From Schizochytrium sp. TIO01 (Eukaryota > Sar > Bigyra > Thraustochytrida > Thraustochytriidae), in the NCBI GenBank assembly GCA_004764695.1, contig SMSO01000025.1, positions 3,752,102 through 3,816,101 on the forward strand: DNA of 64,000 bases, in the 5' to 3' direction. This document shows positions 50,557 to 59,565 of this stretch, piece by piece (within the stretch, counting starts at the first letter, position 1; the number at the start of each line of letters is the position of its first letter). The notes beneath the pieces were generated by a model. The model did not search any database. It was given only the letters and a program-made list of their open reading frames with translations, and was not told where the DNA came from. The translations under genes were made by a program, and so were the position numbers.

Positions 50557-51780
50557 ATGAGCCAAGGTTTGGCACCGTCGACTCAGAACCTTACGGGCCG
50601 AGGTAGTGTGGCAACTGGCATTCGACCCCCATGGGAAAAGGCGTGCACATTTGAAGGCCCTCTGTTGAAGAAAAGCGAGTGGCTGAAGAAATGGAATTCG
50701 AGATACTTTCGTATTCGGGGTCGCACATTGTGCTACTACGATTCCCAAATGAGCAAGGTGGCAAGAGGAGAGATTCCACTCATCGGAGCTCAAGTTGCTT
50801 CTGTAAGTGTGCCGGAGCTTAATCGTAAATTTACATTTCAGATTCGCACAGCAAAAAACCAAGATTTTTTGTTTTGTGCGCTTAGTGAAGAAGATCGCCA
50901 CAATTGGATTTCACAAATTGACACTACAATTCACACAGGGCCACAAGCCCAGGCATCACGCCAGGTACAGCAACAGATTGCTGCCAGGGCACTCCCAGAT
51001 TCACAAGGATCTGAAACGGCATCTTCGGCTGCAGCGAACGTCACATCCGCTGGTGTTGCTGATGCATATCAGCTGGGAGGATCTCAGCAAGAAGAGCTTG
51101 ATGCAGATGACAGTGCTACGATTACAGATGGAGATGACGTTGCAGAACAAAGCGCTAATTTACAAGGTATTACAGAAGATCTTGACGATTTAGAAATTGC
51201 TGGAAAGCATCGATTCCCGAGCAATTATGTTCCGCCACCGCCGCCTCCTGACGCGGAAGACCCTCTTTCTTACCTTCTCTCAGTACCGGAGCCGTCTAGT
51301 TCATCCTCCAAAAAACAGGCCAGCTCGCCTCGCGGGGGTCGTCGGCCGAAAACAAGTGCTTTTGCAAAATCTCAGGCGTCGGCATCCTCGTTTCAACGCA
51401 TCGCGTCGCCTCCATCTCGAAGTGTTCAGCGTACCAGCTCTGGCGAAGCTATGCAGCGAATGAATGACGCACCTAGTGCAGATCAAATTAATTTTGATGG
51501 TCCTGCTCTTCGCAATGCTGTGCGTGCGGGTGATCTCTCGTTGGTGAAAACAATTTTGGCTGCTCGCCCGGATCTCGCAACCTATCAAGACAACCAAAGC
51601 CTGACTGTCTTACACTATGCAGCTATGTTCAAGCACGAAGAAATCTGCATGCTTCTTCTCAGTATGGGGGCTGATGCAACTATTGAAAGCCCTAGCGGGG
51701 AGACCCCTCTTAAGCTGGCCCCTGTGTCGGTGGCTAATCATATGCGAGAATATCTCAATGACAACTCAAGTGCTGTGTAG
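50557..51780 (+). CDS. PH-domain protein with C-terminal ankyrin repeats
   Basis: A complete 407-residue frame. Residues about 31-125 form a pleckstrin-homology domain. It begins FEGPLLKKSEWLKKW, has the basic KKWNSRYF strand typical of phosphoinositide-binding PH domains, and ends with the conserved tryptophan of HNWISQI. A disordered linker follows (Gln/Ala/Ser-rich, a proline run at about 226-233, Ser/Arg-rich 250-300). Residues about 314-400 hold two to three ankyrin repeats (LRNAVRAGDLSLVKTIL, LTVLHYAAMFKHEEICMLLL). It is probably a membrane-recruited adaptor. It has no GAP, GEF or kinase domain. It is divergent from the myosin gene and convergent with the chorismate mutase gene. Confidence 0.9.
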   Translation: MSQGLAPSTQNLTGRGSVATGIRPPWEKACTFEGPLLKKSEWLKKWNSRYFRIRGRTLCYYDSQMSKVARGEIPLIGAQVASVSVPELNRKFTFQIRTAKNQDFLFCALSEEDRHNWISQIDTTIHTGPQAQASRQVQQQIAARALPDSQGSETASSAAANVTSAGVADAYQLGGSQQEELDADDSATITDGDDVAEQSANLQGITEDLDDLEIAGKHRFPSNYVPPPPPPDAEDPLSYLLSVPEPSSSSSKKQASSPRGGRRPKTSAFAKSQASASSFQRIASPPSRSVQRTSSGEAMQRMNDAPSADQINFDGPALRNAVRAGDLSLVKTILAARPDLATYQDNQSLTVLHYAAMFKHEEICMLLLSMGADATIESPSGETPLKLAPVSVANHMREYLNDNSSAV

Positions 51781-53439
51781 GTATGATATACGCAACCTTA
51801 GCTTTCCCGCTTCCCACGCGGATAAGGCTGGCCTTAGGCAGCATCAGCAGATGGTTAGTATCCTGAATTAAATATAATTTTTTTGACCTTACGCCGCTCA
51901 AGCTGCATCACTCAATACATTGGTACACCTCCCAGCCTTGGCATTAATTTGTGGCTGTATGAAGAAAGAAAGCCATCTTCAGCTCACGCGCACCAATTGT
52001 CACCGCAGAATCATTGAACAAAACGCACGTTCTGTAGACGATAGTCTGAAAACAAATATTCACTGCACATCGTATTTATTTTAGGCTACATGGCAGTCCA
52101 AGTAAGTTAAGTAGGTTTATTCATAGAATGGTCAACCCTGAATCACACATAACTTAGTTCTTTTAGAAATATAAAATGTCAAAGTTGTATTGTCATCATA
52201 GTAGCAGCAGTAGACGCAATCTGCTTCTTCAAGGTCATGCCGACTTCGTGGAATCAATCAAGGGGCGACTCTGATGCAGAAGCGGAGCTTCACAAAGGTC
52301 CTTGCATCCAATTCCAAGTCACGGTTTTATTTCTCGGAAGATGGGGACCTTGCTCATGATACCAAGGGGATGGGGCGCTTTTGAATCGTGATTATTGACA
52401 GAGCGTTATACCCATGTTGCGGGTCGTAGAATGATAAAAATTGCATAAGTTGACTACCACAACTCGTGGCAGCCTCCATGCATGCAATACATAGTTTCAT
52501 CCTTGCACGAAATCCAAGTTCGACGCACTATAGTATTGTGTTTGCTTACGTCGCCAGCAGAGATCGGCGGATGGTACAAAGGAGCAGCAAGTAATCAATT
52601 TGTCCATGTCAATTCACTTAAAATTTTGACTTAGGGAAACGCCCGAGTCCTTGAAAAGTGTTGATCTCACCGATGCGTTGCATCTGCGTGAGAGGTTGTT
52701 TAGTACTGAGGCATAGCAGTTAAGGTCGTTCCAAGTAATAGAGTCTCAAACATTTTTCACAAGGTTGTAGAGGTAGAAAATATGGAGAACGGTCGTGCTT
52801 CTCATGTCTAGAATTTCTTGTAATGTGTATCATCATTTTCTTTTATCAACATGATATCAAATAGCATATCAAAATACATACAAATCTCAAAATTACATAT
52901 AAATAAACTCATAGGAAAGAAGAAACATGGATTCAAAACTTAAAGTGCTAAAAATTTGAACAAATACAGAAGCAATATGATGTCTGCAATAATACTATAT
53001 CGATTAGAAATGTTAAATTAAATTTTGTGATGAGCTATTGAGTGGAATCATCAATAACCAAGAATCCAAAAACATAGAAACAAGATGTTTCCATCCCTTT
53101 CGCCATGACACAGATCACACAAGAACCCACACAGGCCCATTCGGCAAAGATTGAGAAGAACAATGCCAAGTCGATTAGGGAAGTCTCAAAACAAAAGTAT
53201 GTTTTAAAATATATCAGGCGTGACAGTAATTAGAAAACATGAAAATGATGTATCAATAAAATTGCTTGGGTGGTTGTATGAAAGAGGCGTCCTTTGCTTC
53301 GAAGAATGCCGGGCAGAAAAAGCAAAACCAAAGAATTCAGAAGGCAAGATTGCCCCTCCTTCTACACTACAGTATTATGCGTCTCAACAGCACACGTGCA
53401 ACCTCATCATGCCCTTCGGTTTGAAGATCTGTGGATAAT
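51781..53439. other. Intergenic, no gene recognised
   Basis: A 1.66-kb convergent spacer between the PH-ankyrin and chorismate mutase genes. It is AT-rich, especially 52800-53060, with no array. The one short frame near its right end (53220-53438) shows no domain. I looked for snRNA and tRNA signatures and saw none. Confidence 0.5.
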
Positions 53440-55145
53440 TTAGTAGGCACCAACGAGGCGGAGGAAAGGTGTAGCCTGCTTAAGCTTTTCCAGCGAAGCC
53501 TGCAAGGCCTCGTAGTTAAGCTGCTTGCTCTCAATCTCGCAGAAGAAGGCAAAGTCAGAAGCAGCACCAGCCGGCTGCGGCATGCTCTCGAGGCAGGACA
53601 GGTTGACAGCATCCAGGGCCTTGAGAGCCTCCACAAGAGATCCAGGGCGGTGGGCAACTCCGAAGAAGGCCACCACGTGAGACTTGCCCTCACTGAGCGT
53701 AGACTCAACAGGACTGATGACATAGTAGCGATTCCACCTGGACTCATCCTCGGGATCTACAAAGTGAACAAGACCGCATACCTTCAGGTTCGAAGCAAGC
53801 AGTGCGCGCTGAGTCTCCTTGCAAAATCCAGTGGAAGATCGCTGAATGGGCACGAGTCCAAAGCCGACTTGGTTACGGGCTACTGCGAGGAATGCATCCT
53901 CGATGCTGGAGCAAGACTTAAAATCGTCCTCCTTGACGTCAACGAATCGAGTGCGGGCAGCTGCGCGGGCAAGATCGTCATCAGAGCTGACAATAGCCAC
54001 TGCGGGACGGTCCAAACGCTGCAAAAGGTAGTCTACTTGCACATCCTTGTTGAGAGGAATGAGATAGTTGCGGTAGAGACGTGCGATGACGTCAGGGTCA
54101 ACCTTGTAGCCCATTTCTTCGGAAGATGCACCGTCCGTACCGTAGCGAGAGGCCTTAGTGCGAACGCGCTCAACAACAGCATCCTCAACAGTGATGTTCG
54201 TGAGAGCGTCCATGATTCCTTCAGCGTCGTTGGCCTCGATCATCTTTGTGAAACGCTCGCGCTCAGCCTGAAACTTGGCCTCTGCAACGAACTTACCATA
54301 GTGGATGCGCTTAGAGAGAGCCTGAAGTACGGCAATGTCACAGGTACAGGTAGAGCCATACTCGCCATCATCATCGACGTCACCGGTGGCGCAAAGCTCA
54401 TCAAGGATTTTGGACACGTAGACATTGCTCACCTCCTTGTTGATGTTGATCATGTTCGGCTTGAGTGGACTCTTCTTCGTGCTGGCAGTGACAATGCTCT
54501 TGGGCAAAAGGTCACCGAAGAAAGCATTCTCATCAGGACTGTTGTAGCGTCCGAGCTTGGCATGCAGAGTCTCAGTCTCCACGAGGAAGTGTTCCATGAA
54601 GCAGAGGTCTTGGGCAAGAGGTGTGGCACCCTGGGCCATCACACGGGCACGAAGAACCTCAGACTCGCCCTTCTCATAGCATACGCGGTTACGTGCAAAC
54701 TGCGAACGCTCGATAAGCGCAAAGATAATGGTCTCCTCCTGGCGGATGAGAGCACCGCGGATGTCCGCGAGCTGTTAACATTTAAATAAATTCAACATCC
54801 GTCACCACCATTATGAACGAAGTGCAACCATCGTTCATCGGTTCGTTCGTCGCGAAAATACAAGTATTCGTTAGTCCAAAGAGATTGCCAAAGAAACCAT
54901 ATTTGACACGCAAGCCTCCGAGAGTCATCAGCAAAACTAAAGAATTTATCTCGGTGCTTTGCATAGATAATCACCAAGCTACATCACCAACATCCTAAAG
55001 GTCTCCATGATTTCAGCTTCTCACACCGAAGCCGCCGCTTTGAACCCTCACGACTTTCGAAGTGTGATCTGCGTGAAAATGGACAACACAAGCAACCTGG
55101 TTAGCTTCGATTGAGCTAGCTTACCTTGAGCGGGAGCGTCTCCAT
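53440..55145 (-). CDS. Chorismate mutase fused to a reduced PDT-like segment and an ACT domain (two exons)
   Basis: Exon 1 is 55125-55145 (METLPLK) and exon 2 is 53440-54771. They are joined across a 353-bp GT-AG intron in phase 0, giving 450 residues. Residues 1-262 are a eukaryotic AroQ-type chorismate mutase like yeast Aro7. Active-site equivalents R17, R162, K173, N199 and E203 are present; the yeast T242 and E246 positions are N248 and Q252 (E. coli chorismate mutase also has Gln there). The SPDEN motif (85-89) and the CDIAVLQALSKRIHYG block are well conserved. Residues about 263-361 resemble only part of prephenate dehydratase: GFGLVPIQRSSTG matches its GVVPIENSSSG, and WNRYYVI sits where catalytic TRF should be, so about 80 residues and the catalytic Thr are missing. 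Residues about 373-450 are an ACT domain with GSLV and LESMP (usual GALV and ESRP, the Phe-binding motifs). Chorismate to prephenate activity is expected; dehydratase activity is not. Confidence 0.9.
54772..55124 (-). other. Intron of the chorismate mutase fusion gene
   Basis: Donor AAG|GTAAGC at 55124, acceptor TTAACAG|CTC at 54772. Splicing joins METLPLK to LADIRGALIRQEE in phase 0 and restores the first helix with catalytic R17, which supports the model. Confidence 0.85.
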
Positions 55146-56448: not shown

Positions 56449-59400
56449 CTAATTTTCTTCTAGACTGAGGTTCCCAAACATGTCAGCATCCAGATCTTCC
56501 TCGTCTAGATTTTGGCTTGCATTGTCTCTAGGAGAAGTAGAATCTACGATACTTTCCCCGTTTGTTTGCACAGTTTTTGGTGTGTCAACTGCTTTATTCG
56601 TTCTTTCAGGAGCAACGTATTTTTCAGACGTCTTAGTTTTATTGTTGGCGATTGGAGATGTCAAAAAAGGAATTTTACTTTGGGCTAATGGGGTTGGGGT
56701 CGACATCCCAAAATCAATGCTAGCCATGATGGCATCTACTTCTTCCTTACTCTCAAGTATACTCAAATATGGGGGGGCAAAAGCTTCGCTCTTTTCTACT
56801 TTATCTGGCTCACCAGACACCAGATTGGGATCATTGGTAAATGCAATCGGTCTTGTCGTATTAATATCAGAGTCAGAGCCACCAATTTCATCATCCTCAG
56901 GTATACAAAATTCTGAAGAACTATTATCCCCATTGCTTATGATATATTTAGTGTGCCTACCAGCCGGGGAAGCTGCAAATGGGAGTTTGTTTTTGGCGAG
57001 CGGGGTTGGTGTTGTCACACCAAAATCAATACTCTCCATGATAGCATCCACAGTATCTCCGTCCTCATCCTCAAAAATGCTCAAAAAAGGAGCATTGTCA
57101 GAATTTTGATGGATCGTTGGCAAATTTACATGCGCAGGAGAACCAGGGAATGCAAATGTACTTTGAGCAAGTGGAGTTGGTGTGCTCATTCCAAAATCAA
57201 TACCTTCCATTATTGCATCTACATCAGCGTCATTGTTTGTAAACGAATCAAGATATAACGGCTCAGGTATATCATCCGGTTTTTCTTGACTGCTATTCTC
57301 TTCATTAAGGCATGCATTGATATCTAACTTGTTTTCTGACAAGCCTTTTTGAGAACTCTGAGCGCTATTCAATTTAGGCTTCGAAAGATACTTCTCAGCA
57401 AATTCGATCTCAGTCATTGCTTTGACTTGATCCTTGCTCCCGGTTTCGTTAAATGGTGTTACTTCATTTGAAGGATCGTCGGTCGTCCCCATAGCGCAGA
57501 TAACTTCCCAATCTTGATTCTGATTAATGTCTTCATCCGATTCAATTGCATTGGTTTTTAGATTTATCGACAAAGTTACATTAGAGTCCGTAGAAGCTAG
57601 GAGAGTGTGGCTTGTTGAAAGAAGCGGAGCTTCATGAACTTTCGCGAGAGTATCCACATGAGGGAGTCGAACCTCCTGTAAAGGGAATGCTTTTTTAATA
57701 GCCGACGAATCGATACCATCTAGCATCCGAGGGGTTGTAGAACTAGACAGATCCTCCTCAATATGAACAATTTCATCAATCTCTGCATCCACAGAATAGT
57801 TTTGACCCATAAAATTATCTAAGTGAGCAATCTTCTCTACCGAGTCATGAGATGCATTGCTGAAACGTCGGACAGGCTGACCGGGCACGATAGGTTCTAT
57901 TTTATGTTTAACCACAGAGTCATTTTTACCTGGACTTGTTGGGTCTAACGCCGAATCGACATCCTCCCAGTCATCCTCAAACATACAAAGACTTTGTTGC
58001 TGTGATTCTCGAGACAGTGTGCAATCTAAATCAATCTCATCAAACAGTTGATTATCGCCATTACTTTCCTCCGACTTTGTCGAATTCGTTTGTAATTGAC
58101 TGCCCGGTGAAGCTTGCTCTGTGGTAAAATCCACCACCCATTTTCTGTTTACCAGCTCGGAAGACATATGATTCCCTTGAGTACTCACAAAAGCTTCTGT
58201 AGCTGTATTGTTTGCCATTTTTTGACTTAATTGGTTCTCATCAAGGCTATCCTTGGCTTCCGCATGTTGCATAATAGATGTAGAGGCCTCTGGGACGTCG
58301 CCCGTAGTCCCAGCCAGCGCCGTTTGTTGACTTCGACCCTCCTTGGGAGCATGCAGCGGTAAGCTACTTTCAAGTGTAGATGATCGAGAAGAGTGAACGC
58401 AACTACCGGAATTGAATAGTTCTTGAAGTTCTACGGGGAGCCCGGCAATCTCTTCCGCCCTCTCTTGCGCTTTTCGTTTATCCTTTTTGACTTGTAAGTC
58501 TTTGTTTTGTAGTTCTAAGCGGCGATTGAAGGAAGCATGACTCTTTATGATAAACTCAGTACGCTGATCATATAGTTGCGACATCTTTTCTACACGGTAA
58601 GCATCAGCGTTTAGACTTGCCTCATAACGAGCTTGTGCAGCTGCTGTTTCAATCGCAGCAGCAATTTGTTTCTGCTTCCTGCTTTTCATAGATTTTTTAG
58701 AAATGACAGACACTTTTTTATTCCCTGCACGTCGTTTTGTTGGCAGTTTCTTAGAAGTTTTGGTTGATAACTTTGTAGATCCCATTTGAGATGTAGAGTT
58801 TCGATCTCGTGCTTTCGGCGGAGCTGACCGAGGTCTTCGGCGAGTATTTGCCATCTCCATGACGAAAACTGGTTGGTTAGGGATAACTTGGGATGATCTC
58901 TTAACCTTGAGATCGCGAAACGCTTCTAGAATAGTTGCGTCATGCCCCCAGCATTCTAGTCGATGATGCCGAGGGGAATCAGTTCCACGTCCATTATCTT
59001 CATACGATTCAGCAATTTGGATGCCTCGGATATTGCGAAGCTTCGTCCGTGGTGTAATAGGGAGAGAGTCTAGGGAAAGAAGCAAAGTCATTGTTTCATC
59101 AAAAACTTCCTCTAGATCACACGCCTCGTATAGCCTTCGAGATTTTTCATATGCTGTTGGATTCACATGTTGGTGAAGAATAGGAATTCGGTGAATGGTG
59201 GGGCCTTTCCTGCCACTAGAATATGGTCTTTGTCGTTGATTATGTTCAACAAAACCTTGTTCTTTAGAGTCTATGTGCTCCTTTTTCTTGTGTTCAGAGC
59301 TTTGTTTGGGCTTGGTTGTGGAGAAGTTAATCTCTGGTGACGCTTTTCGCTTCTTGGGTTTTTGGCGTGCAGCACTACTGCACTTTCCATCATGGAGAGT

Positions 59401-59565
59401 TTTTTTTAAAGTAATTGCTGACTTTGCAGGAGCTGTGCTTGTTGTTTCGTAGACCGCCATAAGAGTTGAATCTTCAGCTTGCACATCTGAGCGTTGAAGA
59501 TCCTCGAGCCAAGCTCTGGCTCGCAGCAGAGACATAGGATGGCCAACAGCAGCTTTGGCCACCAT
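56449..59565 (-). CDS. Unidentified 1038-residue protein with three TPTP-motif repeats
   Basis: A complete single-exon frame with a clear ATG (59565), but I recognise no family. The N-terminal part (about 1-130) is basic and low-complexity. Residues about 135-235 look folded, with a LEEVFDETMTLLLSLDSLP stretch. Residues about 285-375 are strongly charged and helix-rich (KQKQIAAAIETAAAQA ... KKDKRKAQERAEEI), a likely coiled coil. The C-terminal half is acidic and disordered and carries three copies of a motif with core VDAIMxxIDFGxxTPTPLA at about 57131-57226, 56962-57051 and 56648-56743. Each copy ends about ten residues later in an SP dipeptide. TP and SP are proline-directed kinase sites and the I-D-F-G core is hydrophobic, so a docking or phospho-regulated binding motif is plausible. 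There is no signal peptide or membrane helix. Confidence 0.88.
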   Translation of the reverse strand: MVAKAAVGHPMSLLRARAWLEDLQRSDVQAEDSTLMAVYETTSTAPAKSAITLKKTLHDGKCSSAARQKPKKRKASPEINFSTTKPKQSSEHKKKEHIDSKEQGFVEHNQRQRPYSSGRKGPTIHRIPILHQHVNPTAYEKSRRLYEACDLEEVFDETMTLLLSLDSLPITPRTKLRNIRGIQIAESYEDNGRGTDSPRHHRLECWGHDATILEAFRDLKVKRSSQVIPNQPVFVMEMANTRRRPRSAPPKARDRNSTSQMGSTKLSTKTSKKLPTKRRAGNKKVSVISKKSMKSRKQKQIAAAIETAAAQARYEASLNADAYRVEKMSQLYDQRTEFIIKSHASFNRRLELQNKDLQVKKDKRKAQERAEEIAGLPVELQELFNSGSCVHSSRSSTLESSLPLHAPKEGRSQQTALAGTTGDVPEASTSIMQHAEAKDSLDENQLSQKMANNTATEAFVSTQGNHMSSELVNRKWVVDFTTEQASPGSQLQTNSTKSEESNGDNQLFDEIDLDCTLSRESQQQSLCMFEDDWEDVDSALDPTSPGKNDSVVKHKIEPIVPGQPVRRFSNASHDSVEKIAHLDNFMGQNYSVDAEIDEIVHIEEDLSSSTTPRMLDGIDSSAIKKAFPLQEVRLPHVDTLAKVHEAPLLSTSHTLLASTDSNVTLSINLKTNAIESDEDINQNQDWEVICAMGTTDDPSNEVTPFNETGSKDQVKAMTEIEFAEKYLSKPKLNSAQSSQKGLSENKLDINACLNEENSSQEKPDDIPEPLYLDSFTNNDADVDAIMEGIDFGMSTPTPLAQSTFAFPGSPAHVNLPTIHQNSDNAPFLSIFEDEDGDTVDAIMESIDFGVTTPTPLAKNKLPFAASPAGRHTKYIISNGDNSSSEFCIPEDDEIGGSDSDINTTRPIAFTNDPNLVSGEPDKVEKSEAFAPPYLSILESKEEVDAIMASIDFGMSTPTPLAQSKIPFLTSPIANNKTKTSEKYVAPERTNKAVDTPKTVQTNGESIVDSTSPRDNASQNLDEEDLDADMFGNLSLEEN
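56648..57226 (-). repeat. Three-copy protein motif (VDAIM-IDFG-TPTPLA)
   Basis: Copies at 57131-57226, 56962-57051 and 56648-56743, spaced about 172 and 307 bp apart. All 20 core positions align without gaps, while the spacers are unrelated. The DNA is only moderately similar, so conservation is at protein level. Confidence 0.9.

Follow-up and report, generated by a model that had tools for sequence, protein, structure and literature searches.

A Chorismate Mutase Joined to a Prephenate Dehydratase Remnant without Its Second Lobe: A Possible Phenylalanine Sensor in Schizochytrium sp. TIO01

In Schizochytrium sp. TIO01, a gene on the minus strand of contig SMSO01000025.1 encodes a chorismate mutase (CM) domain followed by part of a prephenate dehydratase (PDT) and an ACT domain. 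The gene (positions 53440-55145, two exons, 450 residues) was analyzed within a stretch of 64,000 nucleotides, referred to as the window. The arrangement raises the question of what the C-terminal tail does, i.e., whether a PDT that has lost a large part of its fold is an idle appendix of the CM or a module that has acquired a role in its control.

The gene model and the domains are summarized in Table 1. The splice that adds the short first exon is supported because the residues of this exon, from E2 onward, align with the solved CM chain 5w6y. The tail (residues 262-450) resembles the CM part in its codon-position bias, with a G+C content at the three codon positions of 0.64/0.43/0.60 as compared to 0.60/0.37/0.63; after base shuffling, the tail frame survives in 7 of 5000 trials. 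Codon usage, expressed per codon, is -0.136 and -0.084 in these two parts of the gene, as compared to 0.122 in two neighboring long open reading frames. On its own, an open frame is weak evidence of coding. Because the antisense strand is also open, with no stops across the tail region, and because codon usage is below that of the neighbors, it is homology and not the open frame that carries the argument below. The antisense frame itself (452 residues, 53431-54789, plus strand) extends over exon 2 and is probably a shadow of the composition of the coding strand. The possibility of a second copy, duplicate or allelic, was rejected, since a search of its own genome gave only the gene itself at the DNA level and a single protein match.

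Elsewhere in the window, a 407-residue frame (50557-51780, plus strand) harbors a PH domain (E 7.1e-20) and ankyrin repeats. A frame of 1038 residues (56449-59565, minus strand) has no Pfam match at E 0.01 and contains a motif like VDAIMESIDFGMSTPTPLAQ, repeated at least three times. No Rfam family matched anywhere in the window.

Table 1. Exons, intron and domains of the CM-PDT-ACT gene (positions within the window)
Feature	Positions	Strand	Description
Exon 1	55125..55145	-	Codes METLPLK; ATG at 55145, then AAG|GTAAGC donor
Intron	54772..55124	-	Predicted; 353 bp, GT-AG, GTAAGC...TTAACAG, G+C 0.43
Exon 2	53440..54771	-	443 codons and TAA stop; open frame
Yeast/plant-type CM domain	54010..54771	-	Residues 8-261, plus 1-7 from exon 1; TIGR01802, PDB chains 5w6y, 7rj1, 4ppu, 2csm
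PDT-fold lobe 1	53758..54009	-	Residues 262-345; PF00800, lobe-1 profile, alignment, model; catalytic motifs lost
Turn DPEDESR replacing PDT lobe 2	53737..53757	-	Residues 346-352; alignment, model
Former TRF strand, WNRYYVIS	53713..53736	-	Residues 353-360; alignment; alone not significant
ACT domain	53443..53682	-	Residues 371-450; PDT-type ACT profile, NF008865, model

The CM domain is complete and of the yeast type, as the initial annotation had proposed. TIGR01802 matches residues 8-261 with E 1.4e-83 (280.3 bits, cut-off 170.9) over positions 3-247 of its 247, and in phmmer alignments the domain has 99 identities over 246 aligned residues with the yeast chain 2csm and 114 over 256 with AtCM1. 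The catalytic residues of the yeast enzyme, which we take to be R16, R157, K168, N194, E198, T242 and E246, are identical at the first five of these seven positions. At the position of E246 the domain has a glutamine (Q252), as does AtCM1, and at that of T242 it has an asparagine (N248), where yeast CM, AtCM1 and 5w6y all have a threonine. Relative to the same three proteins, the domain also carries a ten-residue insert at residues 54-63 (54604-54633, minus strand).

Further positions of the yeast effector site are presumably R75, R76, N138, N139, G141, S142, T145 and T226. Of these, four are retained here (R76, G141, S142, T145) and three are substituted (N138, N139, T226); R75 coincides with the position of Gly149 in AtCM1. 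Both glycines of AtCM1, Gly149 and Gly213, have their equivalents in the domain (G81 and G146); they are reported to determine effector specificity and response (PMC11171525). As judged from these residues, the CM domain is probably active and still classically regulated. The tail had originally been thought to offer a route to allosteric control different from the switch in Aro7. This idea is weakened by the retention of the two effector-site glycines, which makes it more likely that the remnant adds to the known allostery than that it replaces it.

The tail comprises the N-terminal lobe (lobe 1) of a PDT, the very end of the PDT domain and then an ACT domain, in agreement with the original reading. 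The PF00800 match covers residues 278-340, corresponding to positions 14-74 of the 181 in the profile (28.2 bits, cut-off 25.2). The NCBIfam PDT models cover the TRF-containing end and the ACT domain, where the best score is 39.3 bits against a cut-off of 219 set for a whole PDT, and for the E. coli-type P-protein model NF007910 the score is 21.9 bits (cut-off 577). For comparison, a set of bacterial and archaeal PDT-ACT loci was used, from which the best 80 of 490 confirmed PDTs were aligned with the tail and with an intact paralogue from the same genome (see below). Profiles of the separate lobes were cut from these 80 sequences, and the tail was tested against 2000 shuffles. The lobe-1 profile gives 31.9 bits on the tail (best shuffle 13.6), the PDT-type ACT profile gives 39.6 bits (best shuffle 6.9) and the lobe-2 profile gives no match. 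The general Pfam ACT model has no match in the protein at E <=10, and the protein is absent among the 8 matches of this model in the genome.

About 80 residues of the second lobe (lobe 2) had been estimated to be gone, which fits the alignment, where lobe 2 (positions 83-170 in the intact paralogue) spans 88 columns and the tail fills 7 of them. Of the catalytic elements, the GxxGAxS loop, in which both G are conserved at 100%, A at 95% and S at 94% among the best 80 of 490 PDTs, is replaced by SSDDDLA (residues 269-275). The invariant EN pair is lost (ENS to QRS, residues 317-319), as are the T and the F of TRF, which reads NRY. The stretch around the last motif scores 0.5 bits, a value reached by 76 of 2000 shuffles and thus not significant alone, so that the equivalence of NRY, and of WNRY as first noted, with TRF relies on the alignment and the model. 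Because the three motifs are altered in this way, PDT activity is very unlikely; together with the loss of lobe 2, these changes are consistent with the earlier suggestion of an inactive PDT.

Conservation may differ along the tail. Among columns conserved at 98% or more in the best 80 of 490 PDTs, the tail keeps 3 of 12 in lobe 1 and the TRF strand, as compared to 4 of 4 in the ACT domain (p 0.019). The corresponding counts are 4/14 and 6/7 at >=95% (p 0.024), 5/18 and 6/11 at >=90% (p 0.24), 6/19 and 8/13 at >=85% (p 0.149), and 6/23 and 9/16 at >=80% (p 0.094). Because the p value depends on the threshold, this contrast is only suggestive. The median identity of the tail to the best 80 of 490 PDTs is 24%, and in a tree the tail has an end branch of 10 with long-branch warnings, such that the tree cannot place the tail or its origin.

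The PDT ACT motifs at the Phe site are known as GALV and ESRP. In the tail, similar motifs are found at PGSLV (residues 383-387) and ESMP (402-405). The GALV position thus reads GSLV, similarly to GSL in PDB 2qmx, and ESRP reads ESMP; a PDT solved with Phe, 6vh5, has ESY in place of ESR. Helix 1 of the ACT domain has a two-residue deletion relative to the aligned PDTs.

An AlphaFold model of residues 262-450, based on an alignment of 54 of the 80 PDTs, fits lobe 1 and ACT with a pLDDT of 90.5 and a pTM of 0.86. In the model, strands 337-345 and 353-360, which flank lobe 2 in PDTs, are linked by a seven-residue turn, and a complete ACT fold (beta-alpha-beta-beta-alpha-beta) follows the TRF strand. 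As seen in the alignment and in the model, the loss of lobe 2 is clean rather than ragged, i.e., the hinge strands are predicted to be joined by a short turn. Because the PDT alignment leads the model, it indicates compatibility with the PDT fold, not proof of it. A second model, of the 443-residue exon-2 protein, used 31 of the 80 rows without the first 20-25 residues and reproduced the tail. Here, the first strand and helix of lobe 1, which these rows do not cover, are weak (block pLDDT 56-61). The CM domain is poor (mean pLDDT 61.6, pTM 0.46), and for this reason the geometry of a coupling between CM and tail is unsupported by the model.

In a Foldseek search with the tail model, ranks 1-16 are all chains of the PDT family, GqqA and 3luy among them. 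Rank 1 is 7alz (SeGqqA; TM 0.83/0.81), a placement explained by the fact that SeGqqA has lost the same lobe. In the SeGqqA crystal, residues 86-170 were lost by proteolysis, the remainder superimposes with a C-alpha rmsd of 0.76 A and L-Phe is still bound (PMC8192741). Chains A and B of the S. mutans PDT 4lub, present in the library with 188-190 of 276 residues (190 in chain B), also match the lobe-2-less model over their full length; from this example, PDT crystals may often have lobe 2 lost or disordered.

The remaining enzymes of the pathway provide a context for the fate of the dehydratase. In six-frame, exon-by-exon searches of the 64-Mb genome, PF01817 and TIGR01802 each have one match and the AroH-type PF07736 has none, and a second CM gene is therefore rejected. 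The genome also encodes one chorismate synthase and two chorismate-binding enzymes. Because the CM is the only one found, beside a chorismate synthase and an intact PDT, it should be in use. PF00800 matches in two places, i.e., in the gene discussed here and in a fusion protein on contig C31, so that a separate intact PDT, anticipated in the initial annotation, is indeed present. The C31 fusion is encoded by an uninterrupted frame of 1057 codons (L012:1924-5097, minus strand, within C31:4495500-4504500) and contains, above the Pfam cut-offs, a PDT (residues 6-182), TyrA (PDH_N, 400-502) and a class I/II aminotransferase (682-1047). Its ACT domain scores 15.6 bits, as compared to the Pfam cut-off of 27, and aligns with solved PDT ACT domains before and after a long insert. 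All 12 columns conserved at 98% in lobe 1 and TRF (best 80 of 490 PDTs) are kept, as are all 4 in ACT, and no CM family is found among the 15 Pfam families listed for the protein. The CM tail and the C31 PDT-ACT part are 24% identical (45/186), on which grounds close paralogy is rejected; the tree, as noted above, does not place the tail. Together, as far as their domains tell, the two proteins could cover the steps from chorismate to Phe and Tyr. With an intact PDT on C31, the PDT part of the CM protein could decay or find a new use. No report of a PDT-ACT-TyrA-aminotransferase fusion of this type was recognized in the literature, as searched by titles and the starts of abstracts.

Re-use would take the following form. 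There is, in our estimate, an even chance that the protein is a working yeast/plant-type CM with a C-terminal Phe sensor made from the lobe 1 and ACT of a dead PDT. In a homodimer, L-Phe would bind where the two ACT domains meet, as it does in PDTs, and binding would move ACT and lobe 1. The first strand of lobe 1 is predicted to start about three residues past the last CM helix, which carries N248 and Q252. Because of this proximity, the movement could reach the CM active site, where it would lower CM activity. In yeast CM, an allosteric function is established for the loop preceding this helix (PMC12459221). A precedent for control of CM by Phe in a fusion of this kind is E. coli PheA, whose CM activity drops by 55% in excess Phe (PMC10520331). 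Points against this reading are the ESMP motif, the two-residue deletion in ACT helix 1, the missing match to the general Pfam ACT model and the asparagine at the position of T242. The Phe input would add to the Trp/Tyr-type control at the classical CM site, and the removal of lobe 2 would take the dehydratase cleft away. The proposal is directly testable because the equivalent cut in SeGqqA left Phe binding intact.

A more specific and more tentative version, to which we would not assign even chances, is that a catalytic dehydratase, one lobe of which was cleanly cut away, became a stand-alone Phe sensor on an already allosteric CM, which would then receive two stacked inputs, one of the Trp/Tyr type at the CM interface and one from Phe at ACT. 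If true, the gene would display a recognizable step by which an enzyme becomes a sensor: one half, needed to complete the active site, is excised at the hinge, the other, attached to the ligand-binding ACT domain, remains, and the resulting module controls the preceding enzyme of the pathway. A eukaryotic CM would thereby have gained a Phe input separate from the Aro7 switch.

The observations above may also be read in other ways. The tail could be an inert or structural remnant of a former CM-PDT-ACT fusion in which the PDT became redundant, lobe 2 was lost and the rest drifts, kept since it is folded. The strong divergence of the tail, seen in its low identity to the 80 PDTs and its long end branch, points in this direction, as do the few strictly conserved residues left in lobe 1 and TRF. 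However, the frame and the codon-position bias of the tail are intact, the ACT core is kept at the 98% (4/4) and 90% (6/11) levels and the tail, according to the model, still fits the lobe-1/ACT fold, and we regard this explanation as unlikely. Members of both the CM and the PDT families are usually homodimers. This fact weighs against a further scenario, in which the tail, through lobe 1 and ACT, associates with the PDT-ACT region of the C31 fusion, brings the CM to it and passes prephenate on; for GqqA the homodimer is described in PMC8192741. Such docking is attractive in that CM is the one post-chorismate activity that the C31 fusion is without, and in that the ACT domains of PDTs pair across the dimer, with an interface of ~2230 A2 in GqqA (PMC8192741). 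The low identity of the two partners and the long insert in the C31 ACT domain speak against it, and we consider it unlikely.

The ligand, too, may differ from Phe: the ACT domain or the surface of lobe 1 could bind Tyr, Trp or another metabolite and control the CM in response. ACT ligands differ widely among families (PMC1173090), and the change from ESRP to ESMP would be in keeping with such a shift. Yet the nearest profiles are those of PDTs and the ESY-containing 6vh5 was solved with Phe, which leaves this variant highly improbable. Least credible is an artefact, i.e., that lobe 2 is missing due to mis-assembly or a missed exon, even though the gene is known from one assembly alone. The frame is continuous through the junction between lobe 1 and the TRF strand. 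An extra exon restoring lobe 2, which the initial annotation had named as a finding that would refute an inactive PDT, was looked for with the lobe-2 profile on 1997 stop-free six-frame peptides of at least 20 residues from the 64-kb window; none was found (best E 0.59), and the same scan found lobe 1 and ACT in the CM-PDT-ACT gene alone. A missed exon is therefore very unlikely, and a hidden lobe-2 exon is rejected. Moreover, lobe 1 itself is without the catalytic motifs, which a lost stretch of DNA does not explain.

The preferred reading, a CM under the control of a Phe-binding PDT remnant, may be set beside known systems. Searches with the exon-2 protein gave 50 pattern matches and no relatives in a collection of prokaryotic contigs, 10 pattern matches and no relatives in viral contigs, and no relatives in plasmids; the CM alignment gave 62 pattern matches and no relatives in the viral contigs. 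Because these collections hold prokaryotes, viruses and plasmids, the spread of the fusion among eukaryotes is not addressed by them. Titles and the starts of abstracts yielded no report that we recognized as a CM with a lobe-2-less PDT-ACT part.

Yeast Aro7 and AtCM1 have the same whole CM domain, with the five catalytic residues and the equivalents of AtCM1 Gly149 and Gly213. The matches to 2csm and 4ppu reach the end of those chains or stop within one residue of it, whereas here about 190 residues of lobe 1 and ACT follow directly. The bacterial P-protein PheA has the same order of CM, PDT-derived part and ACT, with control of CM by Phe (PMC10520331). However, its CM is of the AroQ-alpha type, whereas the CM described here is of the TIGR01802 type and is joined to a PDT without lobe 2 and its motifs. 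The combination that defines a bifunctional P-protein (AroQ-alpha CM, working PDT and ACT) is thus absent from the protein, as is that which defines a PDT (two lobes and the GxxGAxS, EN and TRF motifs). The TyrA-AroQ-PheA-ACT protein of Archaeoglobus fulgidus is likewise a multidomain fusion of the aromatic pathway with one ACT domain, but it is described as three catalytic domains and ACT, and the passage that describes it (PMC1173090) makes no mention of the loss of a lobe. The best structural match is the SeGqqA core 7alz, where the same lobe is missing, the fold is unchanged and L-Phe is bound (PMC8192741). In SeGqqA the cut is an accident of crystallization, whereas in the Schizochytrium protein the loss of lobe 2 is encoded in the gene and the remainder is fused to a CM.
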